Part shown: positions 506 through 2,611 of the stretch, piece by piece
Position numbering within the stretch: the stretch's first letter is position 1
How the letters are laid out: every line of letters starts with the position of its first letter
Assembly: GCA_029776255.1 (NCBI GenBank)
Contig: JAKOTN010000099.1
Location: 1-49,250 of the forward strand
Direction: 5' to 3'
Source of the DNA: Pseudomonadota bacterium
GTDB lineage: Bacteria > Pseudomonadota > Gammaproteobacteria > Burkholderiales > Rhodocyclaceae
Length of the DNA stretch: 49,250 nt
Notes under the pieces: generated by a model
The model's input: the letters and a program-made list of their open reading frames with translations, nothing else
Told to the model about the DNA's origin: nothing
Database searches by the model: none
Program-made: the position numbers and the translations under genes

Positions 506-532
506 TTAAAAATAAACAGCACTTTAGTGCTG
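506..532 (-). terminator. Rho-independent terminator of tRNA-Leu
   Basis: On the minus strand the hairpin CAGCACTAAAGTGCTG (517-532) is followed by a T-rich run at 508-516. Its first arm starts within the CCA end of the tRNA gene (531-533), so hairpin and mature 3' end share bases. Confidence 0.75.
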
Positions 533-828
533 GTGCCTGGGACGGGAATCGAACCCGTAAGGCTTGCGCCGAGGGATTTTCGTCACACATCGGCTTTCGC
601 CGCCAGCCGCTGCTGTTCGTGCGCTGGACTATGCCTTCACCGTGGCGCCACGCGCTGTAGGTGCCCCCCGTCTAGTCTCTACACCTTCCTCTCGCGAGGC
701 TCGGCTCGGCGTTGCCTCGGCCCAAAGGCCAGGGGTTTCGCCGAATTTGAGGGGATTCACGCGGGCGCTTTCGCTTCCCGGTGCTCAATGTTCAAGTCCC
801 TTGTGTCTACCAATTTCACCACCCAGGC
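531..828 (-). tRNA. tRNA-Leu(UAA), interrupted by a group I intron
   Basis: The 5' exon is 794-828 (35 nt, starting GCCTGGG and ending GGGACTT). The 3' exon is 531-580 (50 nt, starting AAAATCCC, with T-arm GGGTTCGATTCCC, acceptor CCCAGGC, A and an encoded CCA). Joined, they give a normal 85-nt class II tRNA with anticodon stem AGGGA/TCCCT and loop CTTAAAA, so the anticodon is UAA. The exons are separated by 213 nt placed after U34, the first anticodon base. This is the position used by group I introns of cyanobacterial and plastid tRNA-Leu(UAA). The gene ends in a terminator at its CCA, and a promoter lies at 842-870. Confidence 0.93.
581..793 (-). ncRNA. Group I intron (IC3-like) in tRNA-Leu(UAA)
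   Basis: The intron is 213 nt, is preceded by the exon U34 and ends in G (base 581), as group I introns do. Core pieces can be read in order on the minus strand. They are a guide-like TTGAGC near 783-788; a P2 hairpin closed by GAAA (763-780); a P-like AAATTCGGCGAAACC (about 734-748); a Q-like GAGGCAACGCCGAGCC (703-718); an R-like GGTGTAGAGACTAGACGG (668-685); an S-like GAAGGCATAGTCC (626-638); and a P9-type hairpin GGC-GAAA-GCC near the 3' end. The P, Q and R blocks resemble those I recall from cyanobacterial tRNA-Leu introns. There is no room for a homing endonuclease. Self-splicing is inferred, not shown. Confidence 0.9.
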
Positions 829-841
829 AGCGAATCCTTGG

Positions 842-870
842 ATTTTACCTCAGTGCGCGCAACGCGTAAA
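842..870 (-). promoter_or_regulatory. Putative sigma-70 promoter of tRNA-Leu
   Basis: Minus strand: -35 TTTACG (865-870), 17-bp spacer, -10 TAAAAT (842-847). The mature tRNA begins 13 bases after the -10 box. Confidence 0.6.
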
Positions 871-930
871 ATGCGCGGAATATTTTGGATTTGCGTTGGG
901 CCTCGATTTAAGTTGCCCCACCTTGCTGTC

Positions 931-960
931 GTGCGGGTTCGATCCCGGCTCTGGGCACCA
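931..960 (+). pseudogene. tRNA 3'-end fragment (T-arm, acceptor strand and CCA)
   Basis: The sequence has a T-arm-like GCGGGTTCGATCCCGGC with one mismatched pair, then CTCTGGGC and ACCA, as at the 3' end of a plus-strand tRNA. No matching 5' acceptor strand is seen upstream, so it is a fragment, not a gene. It differs from the neighbouring tRNA-Leu 3' end. It may be a remnant of an integration site or of a deleted tRNA. Confidence 0.5.

Positions 961-1028: not shown

Positions 1029-2611
<1,583 letters not shown>

Follow-up and report, generated by a model that had tools for sequence, protein, structure and literature searches.

The tRNA-Leu(UAA) genes of cyanobacteria and plastids carry introns at a single position, directly after U34, which by their descriptions have a short P1 and a core similar to that of the intron analyzed here. 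A 2002 study is said to have found a group I intron in the tRNA-Leu(UAA) of a Pseudomonas isolate, and the cyanobacterial, plastid and Pseudomonas cases have been described as resident host genes; we know of no link between any of them and integrative elements. The available part of a further report gives putative group I introns in tRNA-Leu-TAA of Beggiatoa and Thiomargarita (PMC4853749), and an intron at this site in Proteobacteria is already known. As for phages, a 2014 review states, in the portion accessible, that all phage introns then observed lay in protein-coding genes, despite the many tRNA genes of phages (PMC3984707).

Two described systems provide the nearest parallels for the elements discussed below. 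In tRNA-dependent lysogeny, as set out in the available text of PMC10865867, actinobacteriophages replace the tRNA destroyed by their integration. Integrative and conjugative elements of the Tn4371 family, including ICE-KKS102-4677 and ICEbphKF708, have trb genes, a tyrosine integrase and the att core 5'-GATTTTAAG-3', and the accessible sections of the sources, one a review, have tRNA-Leu, named by the review, as the target of the family, with the site at its 3' end (PMC9960961, PMC6563109). Here we analyze a stretch of 49,250 nucleotides (the window) from a species of Accumulibacter, in which a tRNA-Leu(UAA) gene split by a group I intron lies beside the decayed half of a native, intronless copy.

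The split gene, its intron and the native site

With introns allowed, ARAGORN calls a tRNA-Leu(UAA) gene at c[531,828] whose 213-nt intron falls between bases 35 and 36 and whose joined exons form an 85-nt tRNA, complete in its arms and with the CCA end; without introns, the gene at 531-828 is not called (Table 1). The original prediction, made from the letters of the window, had given the tRNA identity, the insertion after U34, the intron length, a perfect 85-nt joined tRNA, a final G in the intron and a proteobacterial host, and each of these is borne out, the last base of the intron being G and the genome that of an Accumulibacter species. Its claim of a group I intron likewise holds, on a covarying core and a match to the covariance model RF00028 with E = 1.4e-5 in 701 bases searched. 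The covariance check that it had proposed thus came out in favor by expectation and by span, all 253 model positions being matched, and short by score, the 29.6 bits lying under the gathering score of 50. None of the 17 loci with an intron-split tRNA-Leu, the window's included, reaches that threshold, and these settings therefore overlook such genes; as ARAGORN without introns misses them too, genomes can seem to be without tRNA-Leu(UAA).

Table 1. Features around the split tRNA-Leu(UAA) gene, in window coordinates.
Feature	Position	Strand	Basis
tRNA-Leu(UAA) gene split by group I intron	531..828	-	ARAGORN, introns allowed
5' exon, 35 nt, ending ...GACUU (U34)	794..828	-	ARAGORN
Group I intron, 213 nt	581..793	-	RF00028, 29.6 bits; covarying P4-P9
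3' exon, 50 nt, starting AAAAUC, CCA encoded	531..580	-	ARAGORN
Terminator-like hairpin and T-rich tail directly 3' of tRNA	517..532	-	Consensus match and fold only
Promoter-like hexamers 5' of tRNA	842..870	-	Consensus match only
IS3-type transposase frame, 3' end, at contig edge	2..175	+	Translation
Integrated element end (attR side), includes ...TTTGCGTTGGGCCTC	829..904		Alignment with L118, L141, L190
Decayed 3' half of native intronless tRNA-Leu(UAA)	905..960	+	Starts at degraded core, GATTTAAGTT vs GACTTAAAAT
DUF1178 gene, marks native tRNA-Leu(UAA) site	1029..1469	+	PF06676, E 1.6e-42; ORF opens at 966

The fold was drawn by hand from the window (67 pairs, 12 of them in tRNA stems) and assessed on an alignment of 29 intron-bearing tRNA-Leu genes, 28 of them distinct. 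Paired cells amount to 88.4%, compared with 80.2% in shuffles and 28.6-44.1% in slid controls, and 33 pairs show change on both sides versus 17.6 in shuffles, a value matched by none of 500 shuffles; five of the 33 belong to the tRNA acceptor stem. All five pairs of P7 are paired in every sequence (100%) and three of them covary, with GACUA/UAGUC in the window and GAGCA/UGCUC in most others. Pairing reaches 98% in P4, 100% in P6 and 99-100% in P8, P9a and P9b, the range being 94-100% once P6a and P9 are included, while the weaker helices as drawn are P1 (50%), P2 (65%), P3 (59%) and P5 (83%). The low value for P1, whose columns are unpaired as aligned in 21 of the 28 distinct rows, comes from a one-base offset in the alignment; for P2 and P3, the other intron type probably calls for pairing in another register. 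The window intron thus has the conserved group I core of P3 (59% as drawn), P4, P6 and P7, together with the U-G pair in P1 and the terminal G of group I introns: the 5' splice-site U34 pairs with intron G8, and the final intron base is G in all 121 genes measured. Folded alone, the 5' splice-site stretch gives no stable structure. The intron is presumably self-splicing.

The native site was recognized from 20 congener loci chosen by exon-1 match, all of which have an intact intronless tRNA-Leu(UAA) followed by the DUF1178 gene, with tRNA-Gly(GCC) upstream within the stretch in 18. In the window a relic stands in this position, oriented head to head with the split gene, and its segment 913-960 is identical at 38 of 48 positions to the 3' half of a congener tRNA-Leu(UAA). 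Among the genome's own and congener tRNAs compared, a set that omitted genes whose called end lacks CCA, the 11 top-scoring matches of the relic are all congener Leu(UAA), by which the assignment of 915-960 to tRNA-Phe was rejected. A slot after Gly-Cys on contig C5 was also discarded as the native site, the true slot being the one that precedes DUF1178. The split gene aside, no native 5' half was found in the window genome at up to three mismatches to one congener-type stretch.

Whether the host depends on the split gene was assessed from the 41 tRNAs typed in its draft genome (30 as loci, 10 as stretches, plus the tRNA-Ser of the window). Their leucine members are CAA, CAG, UAG and GAG, and the split UAA gene is absent from the set because that tRNA search is blind to it. 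A second intact tRNA-Leu(UAA), named by the original prediction as part of what would refute it, was looked for and none is present among the 41. Tyr, Ile(GAU), Ala(UGC), Ser(GCU), Thr(GGU) and Gly(UCC) are absent from them as well; with at least six other expected tRNAs missing, the draft has gaps, and a hidden second Leu(UAA) is therefore possible. No second copy was found in either of two drafts, G000 (the window genome) and G102; apparent second copies in G103 and G104 both proved to be Leu(CAA), and one in G102 Leu(GAG). The prediction had made both UUA and UUG reading dependent on splicing, of which the first part probably stands, as UUA would need this tRNA, and the second does not, because UUG can also be read by the tRNA-Leu(CAA) present. 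UUA accounts for 26 of 13,323 codons in 31 long non-overlapping frames of the window, which were chosen greedily and of which some may not be genes, and the split tRNA would be essential for reading it. Separately, a tRNA-like sequence with the apparent anticodon UUA, which would read the stop codon UAA, occurs near the end of a short contig of the same genome (L026, G000:C170:8479-8550) and could reflect misfolding, a gene fragment or contaminating DNA.

Integrative elements with a split tRNA-Leu(UAA)

A pattern scan returned at least 118 contigs with a candidate split gene, their titles mostly Beta- and Gammaproteobacteria, and ARAGORN confirms an intron-split Leu(UAA) in at least 107 of the 118 contigs listed. 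The rarity in Proteobacteria that the original prediction had assumed does not survive these counts and the published Beggiatoa and Thiomargarita cases. By alignment and blastn, the block upstream of the window tRNA recurs at three of the loci, from Dechloromonas (L118), Azonexus (L141) and SKS4.bin47 (L190), which have introns similar to that of the window (92% identity with L190). Their junction reads ...TTTGYGTTGGGCCTTGA, then CTTAAAATC and an intact native tRNA-Leu 3' half, the Dechloromonas sequence before the core being slightly different. In the window this junction is present too, its core degraded and the element end about 90 bp shorter; blastn of 886-961, which includes the relic, gives 73.7% over 76 bp to L141 and 72.5% over 80 bp to L190.

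More of such an element is seen in the Azonexus contig, where the native 5' and 3' halves lie about 15.6 kb apart and enclose a prophage-like element in the anticodon loop. The element has a 370-aa tyrosine integrase at its far end and the split tRNA at its near (right) end, and also encodes a primase/ATPase and podovirus-like virion proteins (PHROG 684, PHROG 992, T7 gp14-like); its 15.6 kb fall short of the size usual for phages of this kind, and it is perhaps not complete. No intronless Leu(UAA) match was found in the Azonexus genome (28 of 28 candidates scored), the only genome in which both element ends were found. In a quick tree of 115 introns, from which rows with N, without called boundaries or duplicated were omitted, the window groups with L118, L141 and L190 and with L096, L129 and L135 (SH-aLRT 92, the clade not being starred). 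The latter three have similar introns and no half gene within 1.2 kb, and the Limnohabitans genome of L135 has, on another contig, an intronless tRNA-Leu 5' half beside an integrase 55% identical to that of Azonexus. In the window itself, nine Azonexus-element proteins used as tblastn queries revealed no phage gene; in the window genome, the largest virion protein had no match in a search run without a positive control, the integrases are only distant, and no left element end was found, leaving one end seen. What the window preserves is therefore a leftover and not a living element.

Viral collections were examined for the same arrangement. None of 10 IMG/VR relatives of the virion protein carries a split tRNA, some of the stretches being cut off short; no phage junction was found in the viral contigs, and the sole integrase relative among them (L294, 59%) has no tRNA in the 7.1 kb examined. 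Five viral contigs were rejected as cargo carriers (L283, L284, L285, L289, L290): their introns group with Achromobacter, and their integrases lie just past the 3' end of the tRNA with no half gene, an arrangement that suggests prophages beside a resident gene. L286 and L287 (a 5' half and an integrase, no intron) and L177 (an intronless gene) were chance matches to the pattern. In two IMG/VR tRNA-array contigs (L282, L288), a 684-nt group I-like intron interrupts tRNA-Leu(UAA) at this site and holds an antisense HNH endonuclease frame (PF01844), which makes this longer form possibly capable of homing.

A second class of element resembles the Tn4371 family. Among the matches listed, an orphan intronless tRNA-Leu(UAA) 5' half, cut at the anticodon loop, lies upstream of the split gene in 29 of 118 loci and a 3' half beside it in three (L118, L141 and L190); with a further 5' half that has one N inside (L170), the 5' halves total 30, all of which except L089 have in common an end with ...TGTCAA. 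Of five such loci scanned, trb transfer genes adjoin the tRNA in L086, L098 and L163, and other genes in L113 and L172; in L113 (SZAS-72, G048) an OLD/AAA ATPase and a UvrD-like helicase lie inside the element after the split tRNA (L113:325-3951), an arrangement that we take to resemble phage-defence cargo. A search for the right end gave one each in four of six genomes. The 160-bp end common to those four and A. regalis is 96-100% identical to the references in four and 90% in L256, and abuts the CTTAAAATC core and the native 3' half. The trb elements do not rebuild the native gene, and their split tRNA-Leu lies about 0.2 kb inside. All four right ends scanned (L253, L254, L255 and L236, the last being A. 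regalis) have a tyrosine integrase of 411-413 aa (PF00589) beside them, and at 26% identity over 285 residues the integrases of the two classes are distant relatives. In A. regalis, a congener of the window species, DUF1178 comes after the 3' half, which means that the element there struck the gene whose relic is seen in the window. The second class, of which the window is not a member, thus shows trb genes, a tyrosine integrase and the att sequence GATTTTAAG.

Since the loci had been found by way of the intron, elements with an intronless replacement would have escaped, and we therefore searched with the element's own end at no more than one mismatch. This intron-blind search returned three ends in 399 genomes of the order, a small sample, and none in 369 genomes of the class; each of the three is followed some 0.2 kb inward by a split tRNA, which in L293 ARAGORN labels wrongly although the sequence is plain. 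Nearness of an integrase discriminates poorly: one lies within 3 kb at 9 of 136 loci that have the split-gene pattern and at 1 of 41 intronless loci. Aeromonas caviae H58 was rejected as an intronless copy of the element, its gene being native and intronless. In L291 (G421:C21:30737), the orphan native half at the element end resembles the element's own replacement exon minus the intron, as if a second element had struck a replacement gene that had lost its intron.

Related sequences also occur outside these settings. The window genome has a second group I intron (G000:C42:411-755; L031, L073), scoring 35.7 bits with RF00028, in a tRNA of anticodon CAU; it is 268 nt long and placed before the anticodon by ARAGORN, and partial matches to the window intron elsewhere in many congeners may be this CAU-tRNA intron. 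A tRNA-Thr(UGU) called by ARAGORN (L041, G038:C8:810812-811102) has a 216-nt intron whose core matches that of the window. A plasmid scan gave 1282 records, most with a partial match. In the two plasmids examined, pCTX-M3 (L193) and pNCYU-29-69-1 (L194), an AAA ATPase gene, presumably TmrB-like, and the resistance gene aac(3)-II adjoin a related split tRNA-Leu that is present in part or for the most part, as if the region had come from a chromosome with a split tRNA gene.

Origin of the split gene in Accumulibacter

The split gene, its fold, the relic, the common junction, the two-ended Azonexus element and the second class are all visible in the sequences, and from them we infer both that the intron splices and the order of events that follows. 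A phage-like element would have broken the native intronless tRNA-Leu(UAA) of this Accumulibacter by integrating in its anticodon loop, where a core of about nine bases (GACTTAAAA) was the site. The element would have brought a complete tRNA-Leu(UAA), split after U34 by a group I intron, which took over UUA reading; with the rest of the element lost and the native 3' half in decay, the split tRNA would have remained as a fixed part of the host. We give a probability of roughly 0.82 to the window holding the remains of an element with this history.

Vertical inheritance would instead have an old split tRNA-Leu(UAA) kept here and lost in most relatives, as in cyanobacteria. It draws on the many Achromobacter species with related introns and no half gene within 1.2 kb, as inheritance inside that genus would yield, a pattern that extends to most of the 118 listed loci (Achromobacter, Cupriavidus and others), which may be long-resident, and on the conservation of the upstream block in the window, L118, L141 and L190. 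However, the split gene is present in only two of 28 Accumulibacter genomes, in sequences as unlike as 73% identity, whereas 20 others, chosen by exon match, have an intact intronless native gene, and identical 320-nt split genes occur in A. regalis and Stutzerimonas stutzeri. The relic by its presence already disfavors inheritance, which we consider quite unlikely.

Homing or reverse splicing, by which the intron alone entered a resident tRNA-Leu(UAA), is a very unlikely origin for this gene. The insertion site is constant in 121 of 121 genes, in part by construction of the search, and the 684-nt version with an HNH frame in two IMG/VR contigs indicates that homing may have occurred somewhere in the family; the window intron, however, is too short for the endonuclease frame found in that relative, and the resident gene is still present as a separate half or relic. 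Moreover, the exons travel with the intron: in 25 genomes that allowed both measurements, replacement 5' exons share a median of 30 of 35 bases with the native 5' half of their own genome and a median of 34 of 35 with the replacement 5' exons of others, and by this comparison the tRNA gene appears to move whole, exons and intron together. Local rearrangement, a tRNA-Leu duplication or inversion with IS activity and no integrative element, is hardly credible despite the IS fragment at 2-175 (of IS3 type by its motif) and a spacer shorter than in relatives, since three other genomes have the same junction, which in one of them closes an element that bears an integrase and for which both halves were found. 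The original prediction, which had offered rare transfer or inheritance, pointed partly in the right direction and undersold the case, as the whole split gene is carried by elements that break the native copy.

Possible role of the intron and relation to known systems

In both the Azonexus and trb elements, integration uses a short core and leaves the native tRNA gene unrebuilt, as in tRNA-dependent integration, and the element carries a tRNA of the same isotype; in the window itself just the degraded right end of an element is seen. In our reading, the split tRNA is cargo that replaces the gene destroyed by integration. The exons of all 121 genes measured join as GACTT followed by AAAATC, where the search pattern had demanded GACTT of most genes and had left AAAATC free, and in joining they recreate the integrase core. 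The intron may therefore, on this sequence argument, hide the replacement from re-integration; without it, the replacement would be a target of its own element and of the other class. That the intron is an anti-recombination device, used by two classes against their own and rival integrases and leaving behind many of the scattered tRNA-Leu(UAA) introns, is a proposal to which we assign even odds, the neutral alternative being that the elements merely captured a gene already containing the intron.

The replacement of a broken tRNA by element-borne split copies offers a cause both for the occurrence of group I introns at one exact spot in bacterial tRNA-Leu and for their spread without an endonuclease, and would mean that a group I intron may benefit its carrier. 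The split tRNA-Leu genes of one prophage-like element and of two tRNA-array contigs from IMG/VR also exceed the picture of phage introns confined to protein-coding genes given in the available part of the 2014 review (PMC3984707).

Searched by title and the start of the abstract, with subscription papers mostly outside its scope, the literature yielded no intron-split tRNA tied to an integrative element, and we have not seen in it the replacement of a broken tRNA by an intron-split one in two element classes. Beggiatoa and Thiomargarita are gammaproteobacterial and have, by description, the same split tRNA, given in the accessible part of the report without element context (PMC4853749). The Tn4371-family att sequence GATTTTAAG is the reverse complement of the CTTAAAATC core of the second class, but the second class cuts tRNA-Leu at the anticodon loop, whereas the review gives the 3' end; the word 'intron' occurs in neither of the family's papers, and in the portions available no replacement tRNA is mentioned (PMC9960961, PMC6563109). 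In the main text of the actinobacteriophage study, 'intron' appears once, in the reference list, and 'conjugative', 'proteobacteria' and 'self-splicing' are absent (PMC10865867). With the present elements, tRNA-dependent lysogeny would reach into Proteobacteria and take in conjugative elements: in contrast to the actinobacteriophage system, the hosts here are Proteobacteria, a phage-like and a conjugative class are both involved, and the supplied tRNA has its core split by a group I intron.
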